Shown: one piece after another, positions 679 through 55,225 of the stretch
Position numbering within the stretch: the first letter of the stretch is position 1
Layout: the number at the start of each line of letters is the position of its first letter
Origin: Porodaedalea pini
Lineage: Eukaryota; Basidiomycota; Agaricomycetes; Hymenochaetales; Hymenochaetaceae
Reading direction: 5' to 3'
Assembly (NCBI GenBank): GCA_002794775.1
Contig: NBAY01000044.1
Span: 332,840-396,839 of the forward strand
Length of the DNA stretch: 64,000 bases
Position numbers and translations under genes: made by a program
The notes under the pieces: generated by a model
Seen by the model: the letters and a program-made list of their open reading frames with translations, nothing else
The model's database searches: none
Told to the model about the DNA's origin: nothing

Positions 679-2311
679 ATGTCGCTAGATGACACTGTGC
701 GTATCAGTGGTCTTCATCGTGGAATTCATGATTGATGGTCTGGCGGTAGTTTGGGAGCTTGATTCTTGCATCGGTGTACGTGCGCATTTGAGCTCTTCCT
801 TCGGTGATAATTAATAGTGTTTTGCTCACCAGGTTCACAATGGGGTGCGCTTTGCATTTTTGCTTCGACTTCTCGCTGAATGTTACCGACTAATTTTCCG
901 CGGTAGTCTATGGGGCGCTGGTACAGTGCAGGTCTATTATTACTACAACGTACGTCACATTTCCCTCTTTTATCTCTCGCGTTGGATTTACGTCTGTATG
1001 TACTATCCTTGAAAGAGACATGGCAGCGACTCGTGGTCCCTGAAGATACACGTTTTTGCTGTCTGGGCACTCGATACGGTACATCAGGCGTTCGTCGTCG
1101 CCAGCACGTACAGGTACCTAATCACCAACTATGCAAACGTGGCACAGCTCGCGAAGTTCGAGAGGTGAGCCGTCAATGACCTTGTAGAAACGCGCATGAG
1201 GCTCATTTTTTTCGAATTTAGCATGCTTCGCGACTCGATCATCCTCACGGCAGTCATAAGTGTGCTCGTGCAGTCCGCCTTTGCCGTCCAGATATATCGT
1301 CGTATGTCCCGCTGTGCTGCTTGCCCTTCATTTGCCTCGCAGACTTACATGCGATCTACACAGTAAGCAAGAAAAACCTGATCGTGACGGGCATAATCAC
1401 CGCACTCGCCATCGCTCAATTCGTCTGCACAATCGTGTACTACGTTAAATGCTACAGATTTACCACCTTCGCCGAGCTCCACTCGATCTCCAACGTGATG
1501 CGCACTGTAAATATCGTAACCGCTGTCGCCGACGCTGTCATCGCTGCTATGCTCGTCTTCCTCTTTCACTCCAACAGAACGGGGTCTAAGAAGAACGATA
1601 GCATAGTTAACAAGCTCACAGCGTTTACAATAGACACGGGCGCACTGACGGCTGTGTGTGCAATTGTGTGCTTGATTACGGGCGTCGCACTCCCGAACAC
1701 GCTCGTGTATATCTTGTTTTATCTTCTGCTATCGCGTCGTACGTATCCTCTTCATTCTTCATTTGCTATGCTTAGAACGGAACCATCGCGTCTAGTGTAC
1801 ATGAACTCAATGATGTCGTCGTACGCACCATGTTGTTTTTCTTTCTTCGAGGAAGCTGCTGATTCGCAAAGCCACCAGACTAAACTCGCGTCAGACTATG
1901 CGAGGTAGGACCACAGAGAGCTCCAACACGCCTAGGCTCAACTACTCTATGAACGACATGCGCAATAACCGGCCGGACCAGATTCACGTACGTCTTATCT
2001 CTCTCCCATCCGTTTGTTTTCCACTTTCGCTTTCTCTTCCTTCGGCTTCTCTATGGCATACATGACATACTCATGCAACTCTGGCACGCAGCCCTCCGCC
2101 CCGCGCGTCGTCACTATTAAAGTCGACACGGAGACTATCCTCGACAATGAGATGCACAAGGTGCGTCTCGTATTCGCTTTCCGTCATCTATCATGGCTTA
2201 GGCTGACGCGGAAACCGTCCGGTCGGCGTTATTTTCTAGGGACTCGGCAGGTCGGACTCAGATGTAGGCACCGAGACATCATACCAGAGGTCGAAGGGGA
2301 CGGAGTATTAG
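679..2311 (+). CDS. DUF6534 family multi-spanning membrane protein (spliced)
   Basis: Joining exons across short GT-AG introns gives a typical basidiomycete DUF6534 protein, a multi-helix membrane protein of unknown function. In order I read: a tyrosine-rich end of helix 1 (VQVYYYYN, about 920-948); a second segment with WALDTVHQAF (about 1,050-1,100); YLITNYAN (about 1,115); a helix ending in VQIYR (about 1,290); two further helices (1,345-1,570); the hallmark NRTGSKKNDSIVNKLTAFTI (about 1,570-1,630); and LPNTLVYILFYLLLSRLYMN across an intron near 1,740-1,797. A charged tail follows and ends at TAG 2,309-2,311. The likely start is ATG 679 (MSLDDT), but the first transmembrane exon between 690 and 900 is unclear. 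One inferred intron (1,821-1,851) is only 31 nt, unusually short, so one exon edge may be wrong or a small deletion may have occurred. Family assignment is firm. No function is inferred. Confidence 0.8.
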
Positions 2312-4331
2312 AGCTTTCCCTGCGCCCCGTGTTTCACGGCATCGACGTGGTATGTATCATCCCGGACAGACCACCGTAAACCGTCGACCTTCCCCTCTGT
2401 CCTTCGCTTGTCTTGTTGGGGACGATCGTGCCCAAATCAGACTCGAGGCCGTCATGTGGCATCTGTGTTACTCTTCTTACTCTTCTCAAGCCCGAGCATA
2501 GGCGGAGGCTTCTCTCCTCCCACTCTTTCTTTCTATCGCTCTCTTTCCAGTACATTATGTGCTTTACTATGTGGATAGATAATACTATATCAATGCAAGA
2601 CGCGGATCATTTTTCAGTGTCAGCCTTGTACACTAAATGTACGGCGCGGCCAGCTCAACATCTAGCGACCAAATGGTATGGATTTGTTTATGGCAGGGAT
2701 GAGGAGCACCGGGTAAAGTATATAACCCATTGGGAAAATCGATTGGCGCGGTCGAAAAGCGAAAACTTGGGGAGCACCGTAATATGCCTCTCTTGCGAGT
2801 CTGCCCGAGGTAGTGGCTATGTATGGCTCAACCAGTGTATTATCTGTACGAACAAATTGATATGAAACCGACTCCCTGCTTCGTCTAAAGATGAAAATTG
2901 CGTGACGGTCAAGGACTTTATCCCGTAACCTGTTTCTTGACTAGACCCGCGCTCTTTCGCATCTTTCACGTTGAAGAGTACATGCTTGCCTGATATGTGA
3001 AGACAGGATGAGTTCCAAGGGCGTCTAGCATCGGGTCCCACGTAGAAAGAGCATTGATAAATGTAAGTATTAATCTTTCGAGACTGAAACAGAACCGGTC
3101 TTCTCAATATTAATGTCCAAAGAGCGAGCACAAGGGACACTCAGCTTTGTCTATATATCATCTCTCTGATGATGATCTTCCCCCGAGAAAAAATGATGTA
3201 CTCTTTAACGCTATTCACGAAGTTCCCCGACTTAGCAAGACAATAAATCGAAAGGTCAGACACATCTGCGATGATACACTCATTGACTGATCGTTTCGGC
3301 GAAATGAATAACCGATATGCATATATCAAAGTCATCTCAGATGAACCTCGAGCCGATAATAGTGGGAGTCCGACAAAGCGGTCATCACAAGAGCCATGCA
3401 CTGGCCTGCTCCTAACGCGGGGGAAAAGAACGAGGGGTTACTCCGCGGAGCGCCAGAGGAAAAATTTGTTTGGATGACCGCGCTCCGATCCATCGCATGC
3501 TACACTCTCTAATACAGCATGCCGTCTTGCTTGACGATGTCGTAGCTACAGCTTCGAGAGATATCATGCATCCCCATGCAATCATTGGTTTCTCACCTGC
3601 TACAGTCTTCATGACCTACAGGTTTCAACAGCAGATTCTACACCGGGAGTGAGGTGTGAGCCCCAAGTCAAATAAGACATTCTTTATTCACCGCGGAGAT
3701 TCAGCGTGAAAGATGCGAGAAAGAATAGATGACGAAACAGGAACCAGAAGTTGAACAGCAACTGTTATGATTTTCTCGAACTTCTCGGTGATGGTATTCA
3801 TGAACTCCGTTTCTGTAGAACAGCGCGGCTTTATCCGCCTAAGCCTCGGCGGTCATTTCACTTGATGAGTTCGAGTGTCTTCAGAGAGGCCTCAGTCTTG
3901 TATTAGCATGAGTATCCGGGGCCGTGCTGACAAGTGCTGTTTTTATGTCCATGATTAGTAATATTGGCAAGGTCCCAAAGAGAAGACTCCTTCGATGACT
4001 AACTTCCAAATTGAGCTTCACCATCCCACAGTCCCGTGATGCTCATTTTTTGAATCCTATCGCTATTTCAGTCGAATATCAACCGCTGAGCCGGTAGTAT
4101 CTGTAGTATAACATGGCGCATGCCAAGTCGCGCTGTCAACATTCAAGCTCCCGCCGGCGCTTCGCTCTAACGTCTTATCAAGAAGTACCCATACTGCGTC
4201 CCTCCTCATGGCCATCCATGAAGCTTAAATAACTTATATGGGTGATACTTCTTACGTATCGCCGGATGAACGTTTCCTGTCATTCACAGATTCTATCCGA
4301 GCGAGAAAGTTCACCTTGATGTATCGCTGCT
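2312..4331. other. Intergenic, about 2 kb
   Basis: No convincing gene. Frames of 60-150 codons on both strands lack motifs and have no compatible splice partners. The sequence is of mixed composition and may hold decayed gene or repeat remnants, but nothing specific can be supported. Confidence 0.35.
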
Positions 4332-5338
4332 TTGCCATACACTATTCTCCTTTCCTTCGGCCTCGAGAATATCATGTCTAAATCGTGCGTGCACTCATCG
4401 TTAGTGCCGACTCATATGACGCAATTTCACAAGTGCTCGTTATGTTGTGGAAGAGCTTACCTGCGGACTTCGAGGAGAGTGAAAGCACCTGATCGCGTTT
4501 GCCACCTAAATGTACTAACCGAGTTTATCATGATCATGGCCCTCGTGATGAAATCTATGTACCCAGATCAGTTCGTCCAAATGTCTTTCTACATCAATAT
4601 CAAGCGTGTGAGTCCTTCCTCCTCCTTCCACGTTGTATTTGAATTAAAAGCTGAGAAATGGGCGTCTGATAACACAAGGCAATGCACTCCTGCCGACGCT
4701 GAACTGTTACAAAATGTACGGCGAATTGTCCGACGAAGCAAACCAGCATCGCAAGGCGAGCGCTTGGAAAATTCTCACGACCGCTTCCTCTCTTACAACA
4801 TCGAGTCCGATCCGATCTCACACATACTGTTTTTCATCTCATCTCGCAACGAAGACCTGCAGCAACGAAAAAATTCGCTTGCATCTCTGAGCCACAACAT
4901 TGAGGAACACAGTGCCAGCGCTTCTTGTATCTTCTCTGGTCTTCGTCTTGGGTTTGATTTGATACGACAGGACCCGATCTATCTGCTCACTTTCCCACAA
5001 GTATTCATTTTCATTGGAGGGGGATTGCGCTTGCTTGAGACGCTGTAAGTAGTGCTTATCGTCTTGCCGCTCACCAAGCACTAATCATCTGTTTCTTAGA
5101 TCTATTGAACTGTTTTAACTATACCCTTGGCGCTTGGAAATTTGTAATCATAGTCGTGGAACATGTGAGCCAGGCTCTCTGCTCAGCCTCTGCCCTTCCC
5201 GGGTCTATTTCGAACTTCATCAAGTTCAAGGGGCACTCTTGGCGCAAAGGAACGTATCGCGACCGCTCTTGCAATGGAGCCGAACTTACGGAGACACAGC
5301 TTGACACTAATGCTTCCCGCACTCGAAGATATTCCTAA
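4332..5338 (+). CDS. Unidentified gene candidate or remnant
   Basis: A long plus-strand frame (4,332-5,048) is followed by another open stretch to 5,338, with a plausible intron between them (GTAAGT near 5,046 to TAG near 5,100). The predicted product contains hydrophobic stretches such as DPIYLLTFPQVFIFIGGG, compatible with a membrane protein. Competing spliced readings exist around 4,610-4,860, and I recognise no family. It may be a real but poorly delimited gene or a decayed one. It lies directly upstream of the DUF6533 gene in the same orientation. Confidence 0.25.
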
Positions 5339-5653
5339 CACACGTCCGAACTCGATTCATTTCCGAGTGCTGAAACAGAGATGATGCTCTGGACACATAT
5401 CATAATATCAGTCCAAAAGCGCCAAAGGCGAGCGACGACCTCAGTTCTTCTCTCTTTGATGTTGGTGAGACCATTTATTTTTCATACGTTGATCTTTCTT
5501 ATCTAGCGACCAATATCAAGCCATCATCCCTATTCTGTTCGGTAGTAGAGGGCTTATCGAGGCATGTATATAGTGTGCACTTTTTCACGCGACCTAGAGA
5601 TACACCTTCCAATTCCTATCTCTGTTTAAGCTGGAGCAACGGATTTTTTCCAT

Positions 5654-7259
5654 ATGGCACTTTCTGTTCGATCCCATCCCGAGTTTACCGATCCTTCACT
5701 TGTCGAATCCTTGGTGTCAGAAGCAACTATCGCCCAGTATTTCCAAGTAGCTACTGTCACTGTCTTGGTCTACGACGCCAGTACGTATAAATATTTCGTG
5801 CTCAACAATGTTTCAAGAACAGCTCACAGCTATTGAAGTCATTACAATGGATAAAGAGGTACGATCCACTTTCTTATCCTGCTATATAACACACGAAAAA
5901 AAAGCTCATGCACTGTCCTCCAGGTCAAATACTTCTGGGTATGTACTGGAAACCCGCACAGTAAACCCGAATGCTTATAGCGTACATGTCAAAGAAAACT
6001 CCACGCAAAATTGTGACTGTTGTGTACTTTGCGGTGAGTAGCAATAAGTTAAACTATTTGGTTCTTGACTTACCTTTGCGTAAACATTTAGAACCGTTAT
6101 ATTGGACTCCTAGGTGCTATTGCATATCTGCCTTGTGAGTAAATGATTACGCTCTCAATGGAGCGGGCAAATTTATGTCCTCAACTAAACACCTTCAAAA
6201 GGGAACTCTTTCGGAGAGAGTCTCGCATTGTACGTATAAATGCATATATGTCTATAGAGAAATATGACGTTTGTCCTTAGGTGTAAAGAACAGTATTTGA
6301 GAGCTCCATTTAAGCCACTGACATGTCTCAGGCAAATTTTCCCAGTGGACCCGGAATATCTCCAGTGAGCTTTCCAAATATAGTGAAATGAGTTATAGCT
6401 GACAGAACATTCAGACTGGACAAGCATCGTCTTGATTGACTGTAAGTGATCAGCCGCACTCAATATCGATTCCATCAATCTTATTTTTTTTTCTGCAGAT
6501 ATTCTTATGATCCGGGTTCTTGCACTTTACTCTCAAGGTGAGTTTTAAGGACGTGGAAAACAGTAGCTCAATATTTCGCAGATGAAAAGCTGTCAATCTG
6601 GCTAAAATCATTGCTTGGCTTGGGGGCAGCGTCAAGGCTGGGAATTGTGATCTATGGCACTCTATCCGAAGACAGTATGGCGCTCCGTTAACCACTTTGT
6701 TCAAAAGTTGACTTCGGATTTAGTTTTTGTGAATGTTCTCACGACAGATGTCAAAGTTTGTGGTCAGGCCAGCACGGCACCATTGGAATGGGGATACATA
6801 GACTGGTATGTGGCTAGGATATTGTAAATCTGTCATTAACTTTAAAGTAGGTCCATCCCTATGGTATACGGAGTCATAGTTATGGTCATGGCTCTGTACA
6901 AGGCTGCCGAGCTCTGGAGAATTTCTGCTGGATTCAAAGGTCTCACCCTTGTCAAAGTCCTAATTCAAGACCAATTGATCTATTTCATCCTGTGAGTCTA
7001 GATTTTTACAGTATCACAAACAACCAGTTTGACAATCCTCCCCAGAGCCATCTCATGTTGTGTTTTGAACATATTGGAGTTCAAGATACGAGTTCGGAAT
7101 GCTTTCTTATCAGCTGTCCTGGGATGCCTTGGAAATGCCACTTTCCTGTGTGTCTTAGGAAGCCGTATGCTGGTCAACCTGAAGGAGGCTGGTGAACGAG
7201 GTTTCAACCAGGGAACAAGCTACAGGACGAAGTCCATGAGTAAATTGGAATTCTGTTAG
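5654..7259 (+). CDS. DUF6533 domain membrane protein, copy 1 (spliced)
   Basis: A multi-exon gene for a DUF6533 protein, a basidiomycete family of GPCR-like multi-spanning membrane proteins of unknown function. Exon 1 starts at ATG 5,654 (MALSVRSHPEF) and reaches TVTVLVYDA. Short exons then give the signature IEVITMDKEVKYFW (5,830-5,938), KTPRKIVTVVYFANRYIGLL (from 5,995) and, after further introns, ILMIRVLALYSQ (about 6,500). Next come a helix with WLKSLLGLGAASRLG (about 6,590), SIPMVYGVIVMVMALYKAAE (about 6,850) and a last exon ending at TAG 7,259 with LNILEFKIRVRNAFLSAVLG. The tail is charged and Ser/Thr-rich. A diverged inverted paralogue lies at 32,660-34,262. Both copies share an intron layout in which the acceptor after YFW falls inside what looks like coding sequence (AAG before KTP or KPP). 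No stop was found in the parts joined, so the gene may be intact. Confidence 0.8.
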
Positions 7260-20385: not shown

Positions 20386-20816
20386 GCATCTGCGATACCT
20401 TAATGTTCGTCATGGCGTCAGACTTGCAATGTGACTGATCGTACCTCAGGCTATTCTAGTGACAGTCTTGTTCGAGACACGCCTCTAATACGTTGTTGGC
20501 GATGTCGTGACCATCGACATTTCTCTGCCCTAGATTCCTCCTTCCTCCCTCCATCTGAGAGACACAGATATTACGCAGTTCCTAGATAAAGTATGACACT
20601 GCATTCACAAATGTTGCATCGTAACTGATCAAGTCTGCCTTGCAGTGTCTCATACGTGTATCGATCCAATTCGAGGATTTTGGGTGTCACTGAAGGATAA
20701 GGTCTTAGCTGTTGGCCTGTTCTATTTTCATTTTCTTACTTTGCTTTTCAGCATTCTTTGCTGCAACTATTTCGACTCGGTGACGACACGGAACATCCGC
20801 AGATTCAGCTCGACTA

Positions 20817-23332
20817 ATGGACAACCTCGACGAAGAAGTCACTCGCTGTCGCGATGTTTTGGATTTGCATCCTCCTGGACATCCCGACCGATCTAGTTCA
20901 TTATATGATCTTTCTTCTGCTTTGTGGAGTCGTTTCGAACAAACTGGGGAGACGAATGACCTTGACGAGTCGATAGCATGTGATCGTGACGCGCTTCTAC
21001 TACGATCTGAAGGCCATGCTAGCCGCCCCGATTCCCTGGAGAGCCTCGCCGTATCTCTCATAACTCGATTCAAACAGAGCGGTCGCATGGAGGATCTGGA
21101 AGAGTCGATTAGACTGCACCGCACCGCATTGGATCTCCTCCCTCCCGGCCACCCTGATCGTTCCAGTTCGCTGATGAACCTTGCAAACGCTGTTTTGACT
21201 CGATTCAAGCAGAACGGTCGAACGGAGGATCTGGAAGAGTCGATTTCACTGTACCGCACCGCATTGGATTTCCGCCCTTCCGGCCACCCTCTTCGTTCCT
21301 GGTCGCTGATGAACCTTGCAAGCGCTGTTTTGACTCGATTCAAGCAGAACGGTCGAACGGAGGATCTGGAAGAGTCGATTAGACTATACCGCTCCTCATT
21401 GGATTTCCGCCCTCCCGGCCACCCTCTTCGTTCCTGGTCGCTGATGAACCTTGCAAGCGCTGTTTTGACTCGATTCAAGCAGAACGGCCGAACGGCGGAT
21501 CTGGAAGAGTCGATTAAACTGTACCGCTCCGCATTGGATCTCCTCCCTCCCGGCCACCCTCATCGTTCCAGTTCGTTGATCAGCCTTTCAAATGCTCTTT
21601 GCACTCGATTCCAGCAGGTATATCACGAGAAGGATCTCGAGGAGGCCATTCAATTGCTGGAGTCTGGCGCTCATCATGAATTTTCCAGCTCATTCACACG
21701 CCTCCGATCAGCTCGCCGATGGGCGAACCTCGCACGATCGTATAACCATCCCACTACTCTCGGGGCGTACAGCACGGCACTGCTCCTCCTTGAATGCTCG
21801 CTCAATGTCGTTCCCACTGTGAGCATGCAGCACGAGCTATTAAACGGAAAAAGTGGTTATCCAACACTAGCCGTAGATGCTGCATCACATGCAATTGAAA
21901 AGCGCGATCTCGCCCGTGCTGTCGAGTTTCTTGAGCAGGGGAGGGCCTTGCTCTGGTCCCAAATGCGTGGGTTTAGGATGACCATTGATCGCCTCGCGGA
22001 AGTCAACAAAAAACTGGCTGACAACTTCAAGGACGTTAGTAATGAGTTGGAGGCTCTTGCCACTGGCGCATCACCTGAGACGCGTATCCCTGGATCGAGT
22101 GTAGCTGATGGCCTTGCAGATAACTTGCGGAAAGGACCTCCATCATTTGATGAATTGGTGACACGGAGTCGACGTCTTTCAGAGGACCGAAAGAAACTAA
22201 TCGGCAAATACAAGAACTACCTGGTTTCAAAGACTTTCAGCGACCTACCAGATTCACAACGTTACGGGATGCGGCTGCTGAGGGCCCCATCATTGTTATC
22301 AATCACTCCAGCTATCGCTCAGACGCTATCATTGTTACTAATGTCCACGATCCCGTCCTCGTTCCACTATCAGAAAGCGTTCATAAGTTCTACGAAACGG
22401 TGTTCGACCTGTACAGGCGTCTTACAGATGCACATCGAGATCTTTCATCCCTTCCGAAGAATTACGGCGAAATCCTTAGATTTGTAATGGAGAAATTGTG
22501 GACGCTGATCGTGTCCAAGGTGGTCGAGAAGCTCAAGGAGATTGGGTTTCCGAAACAAAGTCGGATTTGGTGGTGCCCGACTTCCATTTTGCAAGCCTTA
22601 CCATTGCATGCTGCCGGGATATGGTCCAAGGACGACAGGGGTATAACGGGCTATCGTTCACACAAATATATATCATCTTATACACCTACTCTCCAAGCCC
22701 TAATCCAGTCTCGGTCCAACATATCCCTTGACTCTGCGCGTGCACCGCCATTCCTTGTTGTTGGCCAGCCGGACGATAATTTCCAAACCGTCGGACACGA
22801 AATCGATCTGATAGGGAATCCTGGAAGGTCTATGAGGCGCCTCGTCGGAGAGCAAGCAACTAGCAGCGAAGTAATCAGAAACCTGAAAGAACACCCATGG
22901 GTCCATTTCGCGTGTCACGGGGAGCTTGTGCGAGGCAGACCTTTTGATTCGTCTTTCCGGCTTTTTGGAGGTGATCGTCTTAGTTTGCTCGAAATTGTTC
23001 GCGCTCGTTTCCCAAACGCCGAGGTTGCCTTCTTAGCTGCCTGTCATACTGCGGAGCAGACAGTTGATAGCGCACACGATGAAGTGCTCCACCTCGCTGC
23101 GAGCGTGCAGTTCTGCGGGTTTCGGAGCGTGATCGGGACGATGTGGGCAATGCTGGACGAGGACGGGCCAATTCTTGCGCAGAAATTCTACACACATATT
23201 TCTGCAGAAGACGAGACGCCGGAAGCAGGGTTCAAAAAATCCGCACGGGCTCTTTACAAGGCAACGAGAGAGATGCGGAAGAAAAAATTGGCGCCCGAAT
23301 CATGGGTGAACTTTGTTCATATTGGAGCATAA
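20817..23332 (+). pseudogene. TPR-CHAT protein with a frameshift
   Basis: An N-terminal array of tetratricopeptide-like 45-residue repeats (20,817-21,640) is followed by a linker and a CHAT domain, the caspase-HetF-associated protease-like fold. The putative catalytic dyad is present: His in HFACHGEL (about 22,907-22,925) and Cys in FLAACHTAEQ (about 23,030-23,055). The C-terminus ends normally (WVNFVHIGA). Reading frame 1 is open to 22,487, but the expected conserved segment LRDAAAEGPIIVINHSSYRS (about 22,263) lies in another frame. A small out-of-frame deletion therefore sits near 22,231-22,260, where roughly ten residues expected before this segment also appear to be missing. The CHAT part resumes from there to TAA 23,330-23,332. 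An unrecognised intron is the alternative, but no good donor/acceptor pair is obvious. Family knowledge suggests a signal- or damage-triggered protease. The substrate is unknown. Confidence 0.75.
21139..21600 (+). repeat. Near-identical 135-bp tandem TPR-coding units
   Basis: Units start around 21,174, 21,309 and 21,444, spaced exactly 135 bp, each encoding LMNLA-A-VLTRFKQNGRT-D. The flanking TPR units are more diverged. Near-identity at DNA level indicates recent expansion or gene conversion within the TPR array. Confidence 0.85.
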
Positions 23333-24325
23333 GTGGTCGTCATCTGGTGAGTATATAAGGTCTCTTTGATTTCATCCTAATGGATACTCATGTTTGCCAG
23401 GTCCTTTTTTGGTATCTACCATTCTCTGCTTCAGCGCTGTCGACGGGAGCTTCCCAGAAGTTTGCTGTACTATTAATAATCTTCTTTCTGTCTTGATGTT
23501 GTCCGACTACTACAAGAGCTATGCAACTTATGTGTACTTTCGGGCTCTGTACTACATTTAATGTTTGCCCTACTGTGACGAGGAATAAGCGTACGACACT
23601 ATTTGATACTGAGATGCATAATATTTACCTCGCTCTACTGCCTATCTTTCTATTCCAATTGCCTGGACTTATACAAACTGATTTGACCGTATTGAGTCAA
23701 GGGGTTTGGTGCGTTATACTGGGACGGAGATTTGGAAAGGAGGGTGTCATCTGCGGTCTGTGCATGTTTCCTTGCCCTTTCGCAGCTGACTCAATCATCA
23801 CACCCTCTTCTGATGCAGCATACGGAAGAACATGATCATCGCCGCCACCGTACTCTCGGCCGTGCTCAACCTCCTCTCGCTCGCCATGCTGAACTGTACC
23901 TCTGTGACGAGCAAAACGCGGTCGACGAGGGGCTCGATGGCGAGGTGCACGAGCTGCGACATCAATAGATTGTGCGAAGTTGGAGCACGATATATATGGC
24001 ACAGGTTTGGAGGGAAACGAGGACGTAATAGAAGTCGTTTTACCTTCTTGCACGCTTTCCATCTGCACAGGCTTTCTCGCTATGATGTCCATCAACTATT
24101 GAATGAATATCGAAGTTTAGTAAGACATTGTGGTAATAAAGACAAAGTTACATTGATTCAGTGATGAGGGACATGTGCCTCTTTTAATCCGATTTGATCT
24201 ACCTAAGTCCATGAACACGATTTCGTCTATTAAAAAAGGTGGCGAAGAGAGACAACGAGGAATCAATGGATGACGCGAGAAACCCAGCAAAATAGAACGC
24301 GGGTAAAAACGAAAGCAGAGTATGA
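23333..24325. other. Intergenic, about 1 kb
   Basis: A possible exon-like stretch (23,829-23,968, IIAATVLSAVLNLLSLAMLN) encodes one hydrophobic helix and may be a remnant of a membrane-protein gene. Nothing else is supportable. Confidence 0.3.
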
Positions 24326-25610
24326 TCATTGATCTCCAGGTTCCCCTTCCTCCATGTCGTCCTCATCCTCATCCTCATCCTTCGCAGTACTCCACGGCAC
24401 CTCCGGCACCAGGCAGCGGGTCCGATATAGGTTCGCTGCCCCCACCAGAGAGCGGAATCCCGCTGTTACGTCCTTTCTCCCAGGCGAGCCCGCGTGCAAA
24501 GAGCGCAGAGGCGGTATACGGGCCCGACGCAGCGCATCACGGAGATGGTACACTGCGCGAGGCCGTTCACTGAGCCCAATGTCGATTTGCCTCTGTGTGG
24601 CTTCTTCGTCTTTAGAGCTTTCTTGACTCCAATGTTTCTGGACGAGGTCGATGAAGCAGACGGGAATGAGGGTCGCGCTGGAGGATGAGGATGAGATGGG
24701 CAGACGTGAGGAATGGTTGGATTTCAAAGGAATGGCGTTCGCCGCAGCCGTGATACTAAAGATGAGAGTATATGCCTAACAGAGTCAACATACAAAATGA
24801 ACACACTGCTGTGGCACATATTGAGCAACAGTGTCAACCCAAATTGAAGTGTCATAAGCACGACCAACGCCGGTCTAATCGTGAATTCTTCCACACCAGA
24901 CACCGAAGTAGATACTCGGTCTTCCGCACGTACAACGTCACTCATGGCAGGGAACAGTGCAAAGATTGGCACCCCACTCGCAATACCAACGAGGTACACT
25001 GTCTCATTTCCCATCGACGAGTAAGGCGCGCAAAGAACCCGACCTGGAAGATCCCATTTGCGAGTCCCAGAAATGCAAGTGCGACACCTATAGCATGAGG
25101 AGGGAGTCCAAGCCCACCAAGGAGTGCGGGGTCGCGTAAAAGACTGGCTACAGCACGCGATACGCAATATCGAGTAAGGAAAGGAGGGCGTACGCCGCGG
25201 TTGAGAGAAGAACAGGCGGAGTGATTATTTTTCGTAAAGCCGGCGCCTCCGGAATGGACGGAGTGCTAGGCCCCATATCCAGTTTTAATGAGTTCGAAGA
25301 TATATGAGTGCGATGCGGGAGAAGCGCATGGAAGGAGAATCCAGTCGGGTTTGTGTCTTTAAGCAATAAATATGTGGTACTCCAAGCCAGGATACTGAAT
25401 GTCACCGGAATTGAACAGGGCAAGAAGTACGGGTACTTCTTCAAGAAGGCGCTTCCTCCAAAACGCTCGGAAACTGCTCCATAGGGTGGGAGAATGCACG
25501 CCCAATAAGAGGACCTACCGTCGCTCCTGTGCTCCAGGAAATAGGTTGATACGCAAAAGCTTGAGTAACGTTCGTAGGGGTATCAGCTCATCTATCATGC
25601 TCTTTATCAC
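24326..25610 (-). pseudogene. MFS transporter, decayed
   Basis: Minus-strand segments match the C-terminal two thirds of a fungal major facilitator superfamily transporter. In order: QAFAYQPISWSTGATVGPLI (about 25,540), KKYPYFLPCSIPVTFSILAW (about 25,430), PPVLLSTAAYALLSLLDIAY (about 25,180), ETVYLVGIASGVPIFALFPA (about 24,980), GSVNGLAQCTISVMRCVGP (about 24,560) and an acidic tail DEDEDEDDMEEGEPGD before TGA at 24,326. The frame shifts near 25,440 (GAAGCGCC before FLKKYPYF), stops occur further upstream, and no N-terminal helices are found. The gene is therefore broken and 5'-truncated beside repeat copy 2. The substrate cannot be inferred. Confidence 0.7.
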
Positions 25611-25754
25611 GCAGATATTTCCATTACGGACTCTGTTCTATTGTTTTGTTGTGAAAGCGGGCACGGAGGGGCCATGTCAGTACGTAGACTTCTTCCGAAA
25701 GTCCAGAAAACTTACGAGAGAGCGGGCTACGACGAGAGCAGGGAAGGATCTTGC

Positions 25755-27082
25755 AAGCGAACTTCAGTGGCAAAGCTCAGACATGAAAAGATATACATGC
25801 AAGAAGGTAAGAACGAGCAGAGCATGCTAGGCAGGCCGCCTCGAGATGCCGGTGCCATTGCCAAAAGACTTGCTTTGAAATCTGATCCGTATAAAACATC
25901 GAACCAATTTTTCCAACGCATTGACTTATTGTAAACATGCCTTCGAGGCGGACTCGCTTCACCAGCCATACACATACCCTTATTGTGAAGACTTAAAGTG
26001 GAAATGAGGCGATCTGAGCTGCACGTCAGACATGGTAAGCATGAGCGATCGAAAAGATATGTACATAGCCAATAAGAAAAACATCAAGAGAAATCCAAGA
26101 GTGAAACGAAGACTACTCCGCCCCCAGACGGAAGGCACATCGTGATCACACCTGATTTAAGCCGTATTGTGGCTCTACAGGTAAGATGGTGATGCATTCC
26201 GAGTGGCGGAACGACTCGTCGACTCTAAGGGTGAAATAGGCACGAAGCCGAATATGGCGACGCGACCGACGCTGAAGATAGACGAGTTATACTTTCTCGA
26301 GCTCGTCATGGCTCAGCTATGATTTACTTCGCATGAGCAAGGGAATCAGTACGATCACTTGCAGAGAATAAGGTGATGAACTAATAACGTAGCGTGAGTA
26401 GAAGCGGACCATCGTAATGTTCATCGATCCACTAGTTCATATCGCGGAGTTAGTTGCTGAGCGCGACGTGAAGAGCAAGATGTGCATGCTGATCATAAGT
26501 GACGAGCCGTTGTTCCGAGGACCTACTAGCTGTCGACCACATATGGCTGAAAAAGTCCTGCGAAATCGCGTCAGTCGAGCACCAGAAACATGATTTGAAG
26601 AAAGCGCACACACGAACAAACTCACGCCGCCGACAGCCTGTCCCAACGTCTTCACACTTTCTTGCTTCCAGTCAGGGAGGTCCTCGCTGTCACATGCTCC
26701 GCCACGATTCCTTTGCTGGACGTCGACACGGAGACGACACGCTTCCCCTCCAGCTATTTGAGTGAAGTTCAGTTCTGTGTCACACTTCGGGCCAATATCG
26801 TCGACCCGAAGGTATATCATAGCAACAGCATCGAGCATGCTGAGACAACAATGCGGAAAATCAGTTGAAGGGATTCCTGGAGTATATTACGGATGAGTAG
26901 AGCGCACCATCTAGTCACGTCAGGACTATTGATGTCTCGGCTTCGGATACTCGTCTCCGCCGTCCTCGCAAAGTCACTATAACATCCGCATCTTGATTCA
27001 GGTTATGACGAGCACGGCCAAAGCCCTGTAAAGAAACATGAATTGCACTCAGAATTGAAAGGCGAGCATGCATCGCTGCACT
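25755..27082 (-). repeat. Dispersed repeat family, copy 2 (left part of duplicated block)
   Basis: This segment reappears in inverted orientation at about 54,012-55,225 with very high similarity, for example around the stop-proximal frame MCMAGEASPPRRHVYNKS versus VDGEASTPQRHVYNKS. Its right end is cut at 27,082 by the 3.96-kb insertion. The rest of the same block continues at 31,039. The family core reads QIAGGEACRLRVDVQQRN and GQAVGG on the minus strand. Confidence 0.8.
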
Positions 27083-27100
27083 CATCAGGAAAAACCTCCC
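27083..27100 (+). repeat. Left terminal inverted repeat
   Basis: CATCAGGAAAAACCTCCC, the exact reverse complement of 31,021-31,038. Confidence 0.9.
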
Positions 27101-27179
27101 AACGGAATATCATGGAATAATTTTAGAATAGAAAGACATTTGTAAAATAGTTCGGAATGGCATTAGGATGGATTTGGAC

Positions 27180-27345
27180 CCCTTGGAATTGCACGGAATT
27201 GAGTAGAAAAAAGGATCTGTATTGGAATTTGCTAGAACCGGCAAGGTGGTTTGTGGAATTGCACGAAATTGAGTAGAAAAATAAAATTGTATTGGAATTT
27301 GCTGGAATCGGCAAGGTGGGTTGTGGAATGAGACAGAAAATGTTA
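27180..27345 (+). repeat. Left subterminal tandem repeat
   Basis: Two units of about 75-80 bp containing GGAATTGCACGGAATTGAGT and TGGAATTTGCTGGAATCGGC-type words, followed by GGCAAGGTGG. Such subterminal arrays often bind transposase in DNA transposons. Confidence 0.7.
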
Positions 27346-27388
27346 TAGCAAATGCAGCATTTGAGCACCTCAGAAACTTGTAAAATCT

Positions 27389-27980
27389 ATATCTCACTCA
27401 ATTCTTCACAGAATCAGTTCAAAAAAGTTGCTAAATTTATGTTTCGATGGCTTCTAGAATTTTGTGAGCTTAGTGGACAGAAGGTGGAATATTAAAGCTG
27501 CAGTAGTGAGAATAGATGTTTTTCCAGCAAAACTCCTTCCTTGATTTTTACTGAGCTCAAATTTGAAGCTAATGACATGACACTTGTTGGAGAATGGTCT
27601 ATATATTATATGGTTGATTTTATGAGGGCTGAACTAAAGTGAATATTAATGTCTCCTCTTGTTCTGCTTGACTGTTGTGCTGAAACTCTCAAATTTGCTT
27701 GACTCAGACAGTCTTCAAAAAATTGCCTGCATTGTTATAAGCCATCTAAAATTCAATATACATTATACAGACCATTCTCCAACCATTTCATGCCGTTAGC
27801 TTCAAAATTGAGCTCAGGGAAATTCAGGGAAGGAGTTTTGCTAGAAAAACACATATTCCCACCACTGCAGCCTCAATATTCCATATTCTGTCCTCTAAGC
27901 TCAGACACATTTTTGAAACCATTGAAACATAAATTTAGCAACTTTTTTGAAGAGTTTTTGTGAAGAATTGAGTTAGATAT
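27389..27980. mobile_element. Nested foldback (MITE-like) element, ~592 bp
   Basis: Two arms of about 240 bp (27,389-27,630 and 27,735-27,980) are imperfect reverse complements. Both carry AGTTGCTAAATTTATGTTTC, AGCAAAACTCCTTCC and GGAGAATGGTCTA/G on corresponding strands. The ends read ATATCT and AGATAT. It has no coding capacity. It sits inside the left part of the larger element, so it inserted later or was carried along. Confidence 0.8.
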
Positions 27981-28142
27981 GATGTATTTTGTATTTGGAG
28001 GCACTTCAGGTGACAAAAACTGCTAAGTCCAATTTCCCACACCTGGATGCGTCGTCCACAGAAGAGGTGTGGGAACTTGATCACATGTATGTTGGTTTTG
28101 ACGCGGCGCGCCACACAGTCTTCACATCTGCTACCACTCCAA

Positions 28143-28322
28143 TATGTCTGGCGCCAATGTCCTTACAGAACGTCTGAACATACCCTCGATCACACCCACC
28201 GCAACCATTATGCACACAGCAGTAGCCTTACCGGCCGCCTGGTGGGACGCACTCACTGCCGCAGGCAACACGCCGTCTGACTTCCGACTTTCAACTTGCT
28301 CATCTTCAAGCCAAAGACCGTA
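28143..28322 (+). CDS. Short unknown frame inside the transposon
   Basis: A 59-codon frame (MSGANVLTERLNIPSITPTA...) with GC-rich, gene-like composition unlike the AT-rich arms around it. It could be a third captured exon or part of an element gene. I recognise no family. Confidence 0.25.
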
Positions 28323-28589
28323 AAGTCTGAACTTCTCTGCACTGAACAAACTGTCAAGTGAAAAGTGCTTCATGTGCTCGACATCAATGAGTGGTGGGCA
28401 TGGCGGCCTTCCAATCGCAGGCGGGTGTCCATCGCCTATGGTTCGCTCTTCCAGTCAGGTGGTGCGGGCGCTGTGGGCAACAAGCGTACGTGTAGGAAAT
28501 GTGGCTGCTCAACATGCAACGAGTCGGACCGTATCAGTGCTTCTGCCAATCAGTCCAACGTGAATGCTACTTCCTCCTTCAAACACGTC

Positions 28590-30100
28590 GCGCCGAGCAG
28601 TCTGCGAACCACTGGGTCGCGGGCAGCACGTCCAGGTGTGGGGCCTCAATTGACACAGATTCACCCGAGATTGTGGACAAGAAAGTCCATTTGCTGCTCA
28701 ACAAGCCCACTATTGAGAAGTTGGAGTCCATCTCAAACCAGATCATTGCGTGGGTAAACAAAAGTGAGAGCGTGAAGGATGGGCGTACGCTCATTCAGCT
28801 CATTCGGCTTGTGTTCGAGAGGGCGACGGATGAGGCGGTCTGGAGTGAGACGTATGCTCGCTTGTGCCGTAAGATAATGGAGCAGTCCAGTCCGAACGTG
28901 CAGGATGATGTTATCCGCAATGCTGAGGGCAAGCCAATTACAGGTGATCTGCTTTTCCGTAAGTACCTTCTGAATCGCTGTCAGGAAGACTTTGAGCGCG
29001 GCTGGACGCAGAAGGAGTCGATGGCGGCAGCGGCTCTCGTGAAGGCGACAGAGGATCAGGCTGTTAAGGATGCCAACGAAAAGGAAGAAAACAAGGAGGC
29101 TTGCGAGAACGCGCTGTACTTGGACGGATACCACACTGCACAGAAGGCCAAGCGTCAAGGTCTCGGACTCGTCAAGTTCATCGGTGAGCTCTTCGATCTT
29201 CAGATGCTCACGGAACGTATCATGCATGAGTGCATCAAGAAGCTGCTCAACAAGGTCGACAATCCCGAGGAGGAAGAGATCGAAAGTATATGTAAACTAC
29301 TGACAAGTGTTTGTCAGGCGCTCGATACCTCTTAAGGCTCGCGGACACATGGACGTCTATTTCAGTCAGATGAAGGAGCTTGCGAAGAGCAGCAACGTGT
29401 CGTCTTGTATGCAGTTCATGTTACAAGTGCGTACCCTCTGTTTCCTAGCCTTTCGTTGAGCTGACTTTCTTGGACAGGATGTGATTGAATTGCGGGAAAG
29501 GAAATGGACTACCCGCAACTCGGTCGCTGCTCCGTCGACAATCGCTCAGGCGGTACGCGCTCTTGCTTTGTTACTCGATTTCACTTGAGCTTACCAATAT
29601 ACAGGCCGCGAAAGAGAAGGCGCAACAGGAGCAACATAACTTAGCGCGGTCGGCCATGTCTCGCGGTGGTTCACGCCGTGGCCATGATCGTGATGGAAAT
29701 GTTCAAGTCGGTCCCGATGGATGGGCTGTCTTCTCTGGCCCTTCGAGGCCTGCAAACGAGGCGGGTGATCTGACGAACTCTGGCAAGATTCAGAAGGGCA
29801 GTGGCACCATGAACTTCGAACCCACTAGCATCTTCACAAAGAAGGGAGACAGCAAGCGCGACAGTGCGAGCCTTTCAAGGATGAGTTCGAACACGAACAT
29901 GTTCCAGATGCTGCAGGCCGCTGAGGCCGCTAATGAGGCTCCTACTGCATCCTCGTCTCGTCCAAGTCACCCGTCAAGCCTTACAAGGAGCGTCCACTTG
30001 ACCCACAACGCACCTGTGGAACCTGCCCAACCTGCTCAGCGTCCCAGACTCAACCTGCTTCCCCGTTCGAAGCCCATGCAGGAGAAGTCGGAGAATAGTC
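28590..30100 (+). pseudogene. Captured eIF4G fragment (MIF4G region)
   Basis: The translation matches the middle of fungal eIF4G, the translation-initiation scaffold that binds eIF4A and eIF3. Visible blocks are SANHWVAGS just before the domain, KLESISNQIIAWVNKSE, LCRKIMEQSSPNVQDD, LFRKYLLNRCQEDFERGW, QKAKRQGLGLVKFIGELFDL and ICKLLTSVCQALDT (about 28,600-29,332). After a frameshift at about 29,333, KARGHMDVYFSQMKEL and VIELRERKW follow. Then comes a low-complexity Ser/Arg-rich stretch with GPDGWAVF and LNLLPRSKP (to about 30,085). At least two introns typical of the native gene remain (after FMLQ near 29,429 and near 29,553), so genomic DNA was copied, not mRNA. The N-terminal eIF4E-binding region and the C-terminal MA3 domain are absent. 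A functional product is unlikely. Confidence 0.82.
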
Positions 30101-30167
30101 GGCACAAAAATTCAATCATTCCTTATTTCTCGGTTTTCGTGTGGACTTACAAATGACTTTTTGTCCA

Positions 30168-30645
30168 GGGTGTTCCACTTCGCCTTGAACTCGGTCCGGT
30201 TGATATCCAGAAGAAGCAAACACGTTCTGTGCGACGTGATATGGGCATGGAGGAGACTCCCGTACCTGCACTTCTCAAGACTATTCAACAGATGTTCGAG
30301 CGCACGAAGGCTCTGTACACTCTGTACATGTCTCACCTGCGTGTCGTAACCAAATGGGACGATGTCGTGCCGACACTCGATAGCAAATATGTTGCAGTCC
30401 TTCCGTGGTGCGAAGAGAAAGTGTGCGAAGACGACATCAAGGAGCACAGTGGACGCAAGTGCGTGTCTCCTCTCCTTCCTCCACTTTGCTAAAGGGAGCT
30501 GACCATTATTCTATTCTACATAGCTTGGAACCACAAGACGTATGCGCGCCGTCCGCAGGCACAAAGTCGTGTGCCATTCCCTTCAATCAGGTGCAGTACC
30601 CACCCATCGAGTCTGGCGCCAATAGCACTCGCAGAACTGGAGACT
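30168..30645 (+). pseudogene. Captured prolyl-tRNA synthetase C-terminal fragment
   Basis: Joined directly after the eIF4G piece in the same orientation, the frame switches to the C-terminal part of eukaryotic-type ProRS: GVPLRLELGPVDIQKKQT, VRRDMGMEETPVPALLKTI, VVTKWDDVVPTLDSKYVAVL and PWCEEKVCEDDIKEHSGRK. A retained intron (about 30,459-30,522) follows, then LEPQDVCAPSAGTKS and PFNQVQYPPIE. These are anticodon-binding-domain and C-terminal zinc-domain sequences. The catalytic class II core is missing. The fragment loses similarity after about 30,620 and runs into element-end repeats. Confidence 0.8.
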
Positions 30646-30769
30646 GCCGTATCTATGATCAGCATTGTGGCTATTATTCACGGTGATCTTCCTGGTGTGC
30701 TCCATGACCTGTTTGTTAAGTAGGTTGAGTAATTACGGACATGTATGGAATGAGTACGGAATAGCATAA

Positions 30770-30920
30770 TTTATATTGATGAAAGTTTGGAATACGCAAA
30801 TAAATGAGGAAGGAAAATCGGAATACACGAATAAACAATGAAGAAAAATTGAAATGCACGAATAAATGACGAAGAACTACTGGAATGCACAAATAAATGA
30901 CATAGAATACTAGAGAAAGT
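30770..30920 (+). repeat. Right subterminal tandem repeat
   Basis: About four degenerate units of 35-38 bp built on GGAATGCACGAATAAATGA, just inside the right end of the transposon. Confidence 0.7.
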
Positions 30921-31020
30921 CTAGAATACCACAGAATACGGAACACCCTTATAGAATCTGCCTAGTATGGAATCAGTCGGAATCACCGGCTGATTCCGGC
31001 GATTCTGCTATTTTCCGCTG

Positions 31021-31038
31021 GGGAGGTTTTTCCTGATG
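31021..31038 (-). repeat. Right terminal inverted repeat
   Basis: Exact reverse complement of the left terminal repeat, followed by the CT duplication at 31,039-31,040. Confidence 0.9.
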
Positions 31039-32330
31039 CTGACACTCACGTATCCGTTATACAAAAGATACAAGCTAAACCTGTCTGATAGCGGTTCGGC
31101 ACATGACGACAACTGAACCAATGACCAGACCCTTCAGGTTCATGACCCTGTGCGAAGCACCCCGGCGGTGAAGTGCGTGTGTTCTGTTCGAGCGCGCGAG
31201 AAGAGAAAGGAAGTGTGCAGGCGCGGTTCGTACAAGGAAAACTCAAAAAGGTCTGCTTTCATCAATCGTGTCGATGGACGGATCTTGTCCATCTTCAATT
31301 ACGACGTCCATGTAAGTGACTTCATGTGCGACCCGATTATCTCTCGCTAGTCGGACGGGGATACCACTTAGTGACGCGAGCAGTGGATAAGGCGAAAGGA
31401 GGGAGAAACAGCGACGCGACCGAAGCGGGAGATAAAACCGGCAAATAGTCCCTCGAGCCCGTCGCGGATCGGCCACGAACTGTTTTGTACAGAAAATGAC
31501 TTCAGTATGATCACTCCCAGGGAATGAGATGAGATGAATTGACAGAGACAGAGTACGTCCGGAAGCGCGAGTAGCAACGGCGCATCGTCATGCTCGTTCA
31601 TCAACTCGTTTGAATCGCGAAGCGAGCTACTGATCGCGTCGCGGTGGTAATTCAGCGTCGTTGCAAGAACCAGACAGAAACAAGATATCCGCGACGGTGA
31701 TGATGACACTTCGCGCACGAGTCAGATAGTTGCTTTCAGACCGAAGCAGAGCAAGATGCCCGCTGAAAATACGACCTATAAATGCACAAGCTTTGACGTG
31801 CACAAACGACGTACCGATCGCAGTTTTCGTCAAGGGCCTACTAGTTGTCGACCACGTAGCTGAAAGGCTCCTGCAAGATCGGATGAGTCTCTCATCAAGA
31901 ACAAGATTCGAAGAAAACGCGCGGACGAATGAAATGCGCCCCGCCAACAGCCTGCTCCACAGCCTCCATGTATTTCTGTATCGGATCCAGGAGGCTCCTC
32001 GCCGTCTCACACTCTTCCGACACGATTCCTTTGCTTGTCATCGACACGGTGACGATACGCTTCATCTCCAGTCATTTGAGCGAAATACAACTCTGCTCAC
32101 GTGCCTAGGCAAGTGTCGAGGAAGTGTCAGCATATACCACCATGAACAAGTTCGTTGCGGCGTGCGAGAGGAGGTATGCGATTTGTCGGTAGCTGCTGAA
32201 CAAAGAGGAAGATACAGCGCACTCACCTTGTCAACGATAAATTCTCCAAGCCCGACGCGCTTGAAGTCGCTCAGCCCAATGGGTCGGCTCCTTCATGACG
32301 CCCAACCTTCTGCGGTATTTTCCTGCGTAT
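31039..32330 (-). repeat. Dispersed repeat family, copy 3 (right part of duplicated block)
   Basis: Continues the block interrupted at 27,082 and is present inverted at about 52,700-54,010. Minus-strand words include VRSESNYLTRARS and RRRGASWIRYRNTWRLWSRL, the latter identical in the other copy. Frames are short and stop-interrupted. The block as a whole behaves as a segmental duplication. Confidence 0.8.
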
Positions 32331-32659
32331 ACCTCTCATTCTCGCTCGGCTTCCACGCGTACCAACTTACAACCGAAATAATACTTCTTATTATCCTCCT
32401 TCGCTTCCACATCAAAACCGGGCTCTCAATAAATAGTACTTCAAGTACAGCGCAGCAGCCGTAACGTATCCACATGATTGGATATGGTTTACAAAAGAGG
32501 AATCCAGAAAATAGCAACAAAACGAGACAGAGAAACGAGACAGCCAACTTTACTAGTACATGGGGGAAAAAAAGGTCATGTCGTTCATCCCTAATCGCTT
32601 CCTCCACCAGCTGCCCCCCTGCGCATCGATATAAACAGATCCTACAATATTTCCCAGAG

Positions 32660-52639: not shown

Positions 52640-55225
52640 TTTACGTGGCTTCGTTATAGCATTGCCCTATCAACGCTCCCTGAACCTTCATCGTCGGCCC
52701 TGCTCTGTACGAGACGATAGGTGAAGAGAACGGCCTGACACATAGCATTGAGCGACTCTAAGCGCGGCTCGGAGCTCGAAGAATTCATCGTGAACAAGGT
52801 GAGCCCGCCGTATCTTCCTCTTCGTTTAGCAGCTACCGACAAATCGAATGCCTCCTCTCGCACGCCGCAACGAACTTGTTCATGGTGGTATATGCTGACA
52901 CTCCCTCGACACCTGCCTAGACACGTGAGCAGAGTTGTATTTCGCTCAAATGACTGGAGATGAAGCGTATCGTCACCGTGTCGATGACGAGCAAAGGAAT
53001 CGTGTCGGAAGAGTGTGAGACGGCGAGGAGCCTCCTGGATCCGATACAGAAATACATGGAGGCTGTGGAGCAGGCTGTTGGCGGGGCGCATTTCATTCGT
53101 CCGCGCGTTTTCTTCGAATCTTGTTCTTGATGAGAGACTCATCCGATCTTGCAGGAGCCTTTCAGCTACGTGGTCGACAACTAGTAGGCCCTTGACGAAA
53201 ACTGCGATCGGTACGTCGTTTGTGCACGTCAAAGCTTGTGCATTTATAGGTCGTATTTTCAGCTCTGCTTCGGTCTGAAAGCAACTATCTGACTCGTGCG
53301 CGAAGTGTCATCATCACCGTCGCGGATATCTTGTTTCTGTCTGGTTTTTGCAACGATGCTGAATCACCACCGCGACGTCACGGTGATCAGTACTTTGCTT
53401 CGCGATCCAAACGAGTTGATCAACGAACATGGCGATGCACCGTTGCTACTCGCGCTTTCGTACGTACTCTATCACTGTCAGTTCATCTCATCTCATTCCC
53501 TAGGAGTGATCATACTGAAGTCATTGTCTGTACAAAGCAGTTCGTGGCCGATCCACGACGGGATCGAGGGACAATTTGCCGGTTTTATCTCCTGCTCGGT
53601 CGCGTCGCAGATTCTCCCTCCTTTTGCCTTATCCACTGCTCGCGTCACTAAGTGGTATCCCCGTACGAATAGCAAGGGATAATCGGGTCGCAGTCGAAGT
53701 CACTTACATGGACGTCGTAATTGAAGATGGACAAGATCCGTCCATCGACACGATTGATGAAAGCAGTCGTGCGCTGGCGTCGGCCTTTTTTGAGTCTTCC
53801 TTGTACGAACCGCACCTGCACACTTCCTTTCTCTTCTCGCGCGCTCGAACAGAACACACACACTTCACCACCGGGGTGCTTCGTCCAAGGTCATGAACCT
53901 GAAGGGTCTGGTCATTGGTTCAGTTGTCGTCATGTGCCGAACCGTTATCAGACAGGTTTAGCTTGTATCTTTTGTATAACGGATACGTGAGTGTCAGTGC
54001 AGCGATGCATGCTCGCCTTTCAATTCTGAGTGCAATTCATGTTTCTTTACAGGGCTTTGGCCGTGCTCGTCATAACCTGAATCAAGATGCGGATGTTATA
54101 GTGACTTTGCGAGGACGGCGGAGACGAGTATCCGAAGCCGAGACATCAATAGTCCTGACGTGACTAGATGGTGCGCTCTACTCATCCGTAATATACTCCA
54201 GGAATCCTTTCAACTGATTTTCCGCATTGTTGTCTCAGCATGCTCGATGCTGTTGCTATGATATACCTTCGGGTCGACGATATTGGCCCGAAGTGTGACA
54301 CAGAACTGAACTTCACTCAAATAGCTGGAGGGGAAGCGTGTCGTCTCCGTGTCGACGTCCAGAAAAGGAATCGTGGCGGAGCATGTGACAACGAGGACCT
54401 CCCGGACTGGAGGCAGGAAAGTATGAAGACGTTGTGACAGGTTGTCGGCGACGTGGTATTGTTCATGCGTGCGTTTTCTTCGATCACGTTCTTGGTACTC
54501 GACTCACGCAATTTCGCAGACGTTTTTCAGCCACACGTGGTCGACAGCTAGTAGGTCCTCGGAACAACGGCTCGTCAATTATAATCATACACTCTTGTTC
54601 GTTACTCTTGTTCGTGCGAGAACTTGCACTGATAGATCTTAGTTTTAGCAAACACATCTTGCTCTTCACGACGCGCTCAGCAACTAGCTCCGCGATGCAG
54701 ACGAGTGGATTGACGAACATTGCGGTGGGCCGCTTCTACTCAACCTACGCTATTAGTTCTTCACCTGTTCTCTGCAAGTGATCATACTGAACTGGTTGCT
54801 CATTCGAAATAAATCATGGCTGGGCCATGACGACCTCGAAAATATAACTCGTCTATCTTCAGCCTTGGTCGCGTCGCCATATTCGTCCACGTTCTCATTA
54901 CACCCTTAGAGTCGACGAGTCGTTCCGCAACTCTCGGAACGCATGCTTACCATGTCTGACGTGCCGCTCAGATCGCCTCATTTCCGCTTTAAGTCTTCAC
55001 AATAAGGGAGTGTACGTGGATGGTGAAGCGAGTACACCTCAAAGGCATGTTTATAACAAGTCAGCGCGTTGGAAACATTGCTTCGATGTTTTATACGGAT
55101 CAGATTTCAAAGCAAGTCTTTTGGCAATGGCACCGGCATCTCGAGGTGGCCTGCCTAGCCTCTGCTCATTCTTACCTTCTTGCATGTATATTTTTTCATG
55201 TCTGAGCTTTGCCACTGAAGTTCGC
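52640..55225 (+). repeat. Inverted duplicate of the 25.8-32.3 kb repeat block, without the insertion
   Basis: The plus strand here reproduces, in order, the reverse complement of 32,330-31,039 and then of 27,082-25,755, joined seamlessly at about 53,990-54,012. It comprises two related units in tandem (about 52,700-53,900 and 54,250-55,200). Matching frames include RRRGASWIRYRNTWRLWSRL at 53,015 and YLRVDDIGPKCDTELNFTQI at 54,264. Divergence from the other block is low apart from small indels, such as a deletion at about 53,263 and differences near 53,380. Confidence 0.85.

Follow-up and report, generated by a model that had tools for sequence, protein, structure and literature searches.

A 64,000-nucleotide stretch of contig NBAY01000044.1 of the basidiomycete Porodaedalea pini (positions 332,840 to 396,839 of the forward strand, hereafter the window) contains, at positions 27,083-31,038, an element of 3,956 bp bounded by perfect inverted repeats of 18 bp, in which part of an eIF4G gene lies inside a gene for prolyl-tRNA synthetase (ProRS). 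We conclude that this element is very probably a non-autonomous Pack-type transposon of the PlavakaB lineage, whose passenger cargo was captured stepwise. An earlier sequence-only reading had already proposed a gene-capturing Pack-type element, and this is supported by its copies, their shared termini, an empty insertion site and host-like parental genes.

An eIF4G piece nested in ProRS

The element and its cargo are organized as follows (window coordinates).

27081..27082, no strand: target site duplication (TSD) CT, left copy; a single CT is present at the empty site in contig C136
27083..27100, plus strand: left terminal inverted repeat (TIR), CATCAGGAAAAACCTCCC; 100% complementary to the right TIR, with matches genome-wide
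27184..27323, plus strand: left subterminal 70-bp direct repeat, two copies (repeat search)
27389..27980, no strand: long imperfect hairpin, with 81-88% complementarity between its inverted arms (72, 116 and 37 nt)
28118..28329, plus strand: 5' piece of ProRS (host 550-762); 79% identity to the host-like ProRS on C57
28330..30100, plus strand: eIF4G piece (host 1147-2933); 90-91% identity to eIF4G on C33
30107..30616, plus strand: 3' piece of ProRS (host 2478-3009), stopping short of the host stop codon
30615..30650, plus strand: 36-bp second copy of ProRS host 2623-2658 (alignment to the host-like ProRS)
30788..30900, plus strand: right subterminal repeats, four units of ~20 bp at 31-bp spacing (repeat search)
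31021..31038, minus strand: right TIR, 18/18 complementary to 27083-27100
31039..31040, no strand: TSD CT, right copy (flank comparison, empty site)

The inverted termini, the CT duplication, the subterminal repeats and the lack of a visible transposase had all been noticed in the sequence-only reading, and all four observations hold. Pfam searches with two open reading frames (ORFs) of the element revealed no transposase: the sole match of ORF 28496-29332 was MIF4G (E 8e-31), and ORF 29485-30153 had none. The description of the cargo had to be revised. eIF4G had been placed at 28,590-30,100 and ProRS at 30,168-30,645, as two adjoining fragments. The end, the plus strand and the introns of the former are correct, but it really starts at 28,330; the latter is indeed ProRS on the plus strand, but extends from 30,107 to 30,616 and is followed by the 36-bp duplicate. 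Moreover, the 5' ProRS piece with its start codon had been missed. eIF4G sits inside ProRS, the order in element coordinates being ProRS 1036-1247, eIF4G 1248-3018, ProRS 3025-3534 and the 36-bp ProRS duplicate 3533-3568. The 5' ProRS piece comprises 26 bp upstream, the start codon at 28144 and the N-terminal coding part, and the eIF4G piece corresponds to the MIF4G region and the following linker. Both introns of the captured eIF4G stretch are kept, indicating that no spliced mRNA intermediate was involved; capture occurred at the DNA level, and a retrocopy origin of the cargo was rejected on the same grounds.

Host-like versions of both genes were found elsewhere in the genome. ProRS on contig C57 runs from ATG to stop through several introns (exons joined by eye), and eIF4G on C33 encodes the MIF4G and MA3 domains; both are tens of kb from a contig end. 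The best-ranked eIF4G match among named organisms was from Phellopilus nigrolimitatus, also of the Hymenochaetales. Aligning the cargo to these genes, as the sequence-only reading had suggested, showed that, over ungapped columns, the 5' ProRS piece is 79.7%, the 3' ProRS piece 90.0% and the eIF4G piece 90.8% identical to its host-like counterpart (79.3%, 83.5% and 89.9% in BLAST, which counts gaps). The element thereby has the hallmarks of Pack-TYPE elements, namely, a non-autonomous TIR element with fragments of host genes whose parental copies are present elsewhere in the genome.

C33 carries two eIF4G-like genes, L033 (C33:46164) and L034 (C33:77030), 31 kb apart in opposite orientation and 92.6% alike, the second of which is devoid of some residues of the MIF4G region. 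A further eIF4G copy, at C24:314502 (L036), is more diverged and has lost some stretches.

Copies, empty site and transposase-bearing relatives

We searched the whole genome (53.3 Mb, 201 contigs) for relatives of the element. Among 40 scored of 376 candidates, 13 were copies of the window element, itself included, with 98-100% identity, and 27 were partial relatives, mainly covering query positions 274-3018 or less. Eleven of the 13 copies aligned over their full length, and those on C125 and C66 were split by insertions. Allowing up to 2 mismatches, the 18-bp end matched the genome 267 times (133 + 134), compared to 0 + 0 for the reversed control. The search for the termini advocated by the sequence-only reading thus identified many other copies, some with other cargo arrangements (ProRS only, or other junctions).

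TSDs were counted in 30 fetched elements with both ends; L039, L040, L044, L045 and L051, each with one clear end, were dropped. Identical 2-bp flanks were present in 27/30 and a 3-bp duplication in 1/30, and L017 and L025 represent one insertion on two contigs, leaving 29 independent loci. The duplicated dinucleotides were of 11 kinds (TA 6, AA 5, others 1-3). At each of seven shifted offsets, only 0-3 of the 30 elements matched, chance being 6.5%.

On contig C136, both flanks of the window element join with a single CT exactly at the insertion point. The 3,000 bp to the left of the element match C136 at 100%, and over a longer stretch, the two contigs are 99.2% alike on the left and 96.8% on the right. 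C136 is the other haplotype or a redundant contig. Rather than the same gene arrangement without TIRs, which the sequence-only reading would have counted against its proposal if present in all relatives, this second contig of the locus carries the exact empty site. Two pairs of such second-copy contigs were seen (C136 versus window 22559-32281 and C24:47200-52100 versus C71:1300-6300); because some contigs duplicate the same locus, genome-wide copy counts may be slightly inflated. Overall, the 13 copies, the TIR matches against zero in the reversed control and the exact empty site place this observation beyond chance.

These data also bear on whether the block could be ordinary host sequence, either a segmental duplication or a true gene neighborhood, lying between chance inverted repeats. 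The identity of both genes as host genes and the introns kept in the eIF4G piece would be compatible with such an origin. However, the host-like genes are located on different contigs, the 8 fetched of the 13 window-type copies end at the TIRs with differing flanks and 2-bp duplications, and both the exact empty site and the 27/30 matching TSDs contradict it. We consider this explanation extremely unlikely. One-step capture of the two genes as neighbors was likewise rejected, given the different host contigs and the existence of ProRS-only sisters. The differing flanks and the empty site instead point to an element that is mobile as a unit.

Transposase-bearing copies with the same termini, for which the sequence-only reading had advised a search, could be found. 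Two large elements, C36:371,139-382,885 (11.7 kb) and C7:494,687-508,176 (13.5 kb), share the 18-bp ends, have their own 2-bp duplications and are 96.7-97.6% alike over two long blocks. ORFs of the C36 element hold both parts of the Plavaka transposase domain PF18759 (E 2e-77 and 1e-23), and the corresponding parts in the C7 element scored 259 and 83 bits. Among named organisms, the closest Plavaka-domain proteins belong to Sanghuangporus (57-59% identity), also of the Hymenochaetales. A genome-wide search for the family gave 64 Plavaka matches, 15 loci reaching at least 100 bits; 7 of these 15 lie 1.6-1.7 kb from a TIR, among the 121 TIR places listed of 267. In excerpts of Kojima 2025 (PMC12730594), PlavakaB is defined by CATCA..TGATG termini and 2- or 3-bp target duplications. 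The window element has 5'-CATCA..TGATG-3' termini and a 2-bp duplication, and PF18759 is present in the C36 and C7 copies with the same termini; on these features, it appears to fit the PlavakaB lineage.

Helitrons have no TIRs and create no target duplications. The window element has both, its TIRs being perfect, which argues strongly against its being a Helitron-like or retrotransposition product carrying gene pieces. Such an origin was worth considering, as Helitrons capture gene fragments in basidiomycetes, according to PMC4289320. Nevertheless, the kept introns exclude a spliced mRNA intermediate, and the transposase found in copies with the same ends is that of Plavaka, so that we assign this explanation a negligible probability.

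Sister elements and the probable order of capture

We distinguished four Pack subtypes, A to D, A being the window type; the 592-nt hairpin region adjoining the cargo and ProRS are common to all. Subtype B (L012, L013, L017, L018, L024, L025, L028 and the C88 element) has the same ends as A and carries ProRS without eIF4G in 8/8 elements. Subtype C (L009, L014, L015, L016, L019, L020 and L021) has a different subterminal sequence and both genes in 7/7, and subtype D (L037, L038, L041, L042 and L043) has C-like ends and only ProRS in 5/5. Counts of ProRS are lower bounds (40 scored of 161 candidates; 58 of 455). The hairpin (27389-27980) folds as RNA at -288.8 kcal/mol (z -22) and could be a foldback element nested within the Pack elements, or could give rise to double-stranded RNA.

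The left junction between the two genes, ProRS(757-762)/eIF4G(1147), was identical in 16/16 fetched two-gene elements (8 A, 7 C and L044). The right junction varied: it joins eIF4G 2933 to ProRS 2478 in A and 2684 to 1190 in L020 and L021, and in L014, it lies from 3204 onwards and includes a scrambled segment. The deletion junction 1381/1677 of ProRS was shared by 19/21 B, C and D elements (L045 included; L017 and L024 being the exceptions), and a second ProRS piece reaching 1537 in 6/7 C elements leaves the gene partly doubled. L030 (C3:887984-891745) harbors two tandem ProRS copies with the 2764/1089 junction found in C and D. Since this junction is common to C and D and the 1381/1677 deletion is absent from both L030 and L032, these two look like an older form of the arrangement. 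Finally, L020 combines C-like ends with an eIF4G piece 94.6% like that of A, which suggests exchange between types.

The presence of sisters with ProRS alone, or with both genes and other junctions, is in agreement with stepwise capture. In the simplest scenario, ProRS was acquired first, eIF4G was added within it later and reshuffling followed. We propose that the transposase of full-length PlavakaB copies would act on the shared 18-bp ends and insert the element with a 2-bp duplication. An ancestor element would have captured the ProRS gene at the DNA level; a later copy would have gained part of eIF4G inside ProRS, most likely when an internal break in the element was resolved through repair synthesis or template switching, and the resulting chimera would then have been amplified. 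Repair synthesis or template switching is suggested by the nested, scrambled junctions together with the kept introns, and the presence of segments that are nested, duplicated and scrambled is consistent with the models of template switching in excerpts of PMC8277862. Insertion with a 2-bp duplication is evident from the anatomy of the elements, and the transposase probably acts in trans.

Several observations weigh against this interpretation. Three of the 30 complete elements (L014, L037 and L038) do not have a matching 2-bp duplication. BLAST revealed no similarity between the window type and the transposase-bearing C36 copy beyond the 18-bp TIR, and the similarity of the C36 ends (115-200 bp, 74-88%) is to subtypes C and D, not to A and B. 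Of the 15 strong transposase loci, eight do not show the 1.6-1.7 kb spacing: the TIR is 1.8 kb away for C93 and 9.2 kb away for two others, and for five, none of the listed TIR places (121/267) falls within 15 kb. In addition, there is hardly any microhomology, if any, at the left breakpoint of type A. It is from structure that we infer transposition itself, the activity of the transposase in trans and the mechanism of capture.

Other loci carry related sequences. In L039 and L040, a left end of type C or A extends for 360 and 416 bp before giving way to other sequence; neither ProRS nor eIF4G was found in the 5.1 kb fetched, and these loci could be truncated or have different contents. For the additional middle stretches in L018, L024 and L028, no Pfam match exceeded the cutoff (5 ORFs). 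The B-type hairpin of L024 is interrupted by a 2.9-kb insertion (3905-6826 in locus coordinates), which has inverted ends of its own and contains glutamine-rich ORFs. A gag-pol long terminal repeat (LTR) retrotransposon, with 432-bp LTRs 97% alike, is nested in the ProRS-bearing B-type C88 element (L026+L027). Retrotransposon-like sequence beside ProRS in L030 and L032 raised the possibility of ProRS capture by an LTR retrotransposon. This was rejected because on C10, a ProRS copy is interrupted by a ~1-kb repeat that the C88 retrotransposon also contains, and host ProRS 1114-1128 flanks this repeat on either side. New cargo at an A-type right end at C25:489,336 was also rejected, the 323-bp end adjoining LTR-retrotransposon-like sequence. 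In four older-looking loci (C24:32491-35512, C71:18207-21825, C135:3501-7119 and C31:103154-106175), a weak MIF4G match precedes ProRS with order and strand unchanged; these loci could be an ancient form of the cargo.

Elsewhere in the window, the left flank (24083-27082) itself belongs to a diverged family of repeats that has numerous matches on C44 and further ones on C78 and C84. ORFs 31730-32464 (plus strand) and 52654-53307 (minus strand), 20 kb apart, share a long, nearly identical protein stretch and represent a second dispersed repeat. Positions 20784-23332 (plus strand) encode repeated TPR-like units followed by a putative CHAT-type protease domain (by eye).

Fate of the cargo and relation to known elements

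The 8 of 13 A copies that we aligned were 98.4-99.5% alike (mean 99.1%). Changes of C>T/G>A affected 68/3,551 CpG cells versus 40/11,713 other C/G cells, a CpG bias as would be expected for methylated DNA. For the eIF4G exon, four pairs of A and C copies gave dN/dS values of 0.55-0.77, and comparison of host C33a with 15 element copies gave 0.21-0.29. In a rough neutral simulation using the observed mutation spectrum, with weights derived from 8/13 copies, all four element pairs fell inside the 5-95% range, and one host-host and one host-element pair fell outside (0/300 simulations as low). Since the element pairs fit neutrality, the element lineage shows no sign of constraint, and whatever part of the host-element path was under constraint must belong to the host side or to an unsampled donor. 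Selection on the cargo was rejected on this basis.

It could nevertheless be that the eIF4G and ProRS pieces give rise to a protein or RNA that affects host genes or protects the element. The MIF4G frame is open over 279 amino acids in the window copy, 7/13 A copies have no stop in the MIF4G match, the very strong hairpin is retained in all subtypes and the cargo was retained while the element multiplied. Against this, the eIF4G exon has diverged between elements as in the rough neutral simulation, 6/13 A copies contain a stop within the MIF4G match, 19/21 non-A elements share the ProRS deletion junction, and there is CpG decay. A functional cargo is thus quite improbable; the cargo looks unconstrained, a decaying passenger with no sign of protein function. 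We also regard as unlikely the broader idea that PlavakaB is here a long-lived capture lineage that repeatedly rebuilds a mosaic of essential translation genes, in which homology to these host genes, together with the hairpin, would protect the elements against silencing or supply small RNAs directed against ProRS and eIF4G, and capture would be under selection instead of accidental.

Gene-capturing elements are familiar from plants but have seldom been described in fungi. In plants, Pack-TYPE elements with intron-bearing and multigene cargo are known. The window element resembles these (Pack-MULE and Pack-CACTA, as outlined in parts of PMC8903248 and PMC13317346) as a non-autonomous TIR element with captured fragments of host genes, but differs by its fungal host, its Plavaka lineage and the nesting of one gene within another. 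With PlavakaB of Agaricomycotina (PMC12730594, in excerpts), it shares the CATCA..TGATG termini, the 2-bp duplications and a Plavaka transposase in large copies. It differs from PlavakaB (PMC12730594) in having ProRS and eIF4G pieces and no transposase; the cargo reported in those excerpts is a TET/JBP dioxygenase, not ProRS or eIF4G. We found no TET/JBP match (E<=0.01) in 8 ORFs of the large copies (7 from C36, 1 from C7), although introns could hide one. Animal Pack-TIRs, in excerpts of PMC8277862, likewise hold host sequence between TIR ends, and their multicopy cases are ascribed to template switching plus transposition. In animals, the median length of the duplicated regions is 224 bp, with four multicopy cases in reference genomes, whereas here the cargo is ~2.5 kb, stems from two genes and is present in dozens of copies.

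In fungi, transduplication has been described for histone H3 in hAT and for an ORF in Tc1/Mariner elements (Pyrenophora tritici-repentis, PMC3538342; Pseudocercospora fijiensis, PMC6710886; both in part). These cases are alike in that a host-type gene is amplified inside a TIR transposon, and extracts of PMC3538342 also mention a shortened non-autonomous form in P. tritici-repentis, like the window element. However, they concern Dothideomycetes, the H3 elements keep hAT sequence, and the P. fijiensis element captured a transcript or retrocopy (PMC6710886, in part), while here introns are kept in a nested two-gene mosaic with Plavaka ends. Judged by title and start of abstract, none of the open-licence papers listed reports Plavaka Pack elements or nested two-gene mosaics. 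The sequence-only reading had considered that a fungal case with two unrelated genes would be notable; this stands as far as the different lineage and the nested two-gene structure are concerned, but TIR gene capture in fungi was already published. The element extends this known phenomenon and does not found a new one.

Our findings reveal Pack-type capture with introns and nested genes in a relative of mushroom-type basidiomycetes, very probably within the Plavaka superfamily. One genome holds ProRS-only sisters, nested sisters, transposase-bearing copies, the likely parental genes and an empty site. With all of these in one genome, the order of events and the breakpoints can be read, and competing models of capture become testable. 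Finally, counts of ProRS and eIF4G genes in such genomes can be inflated by transposons.

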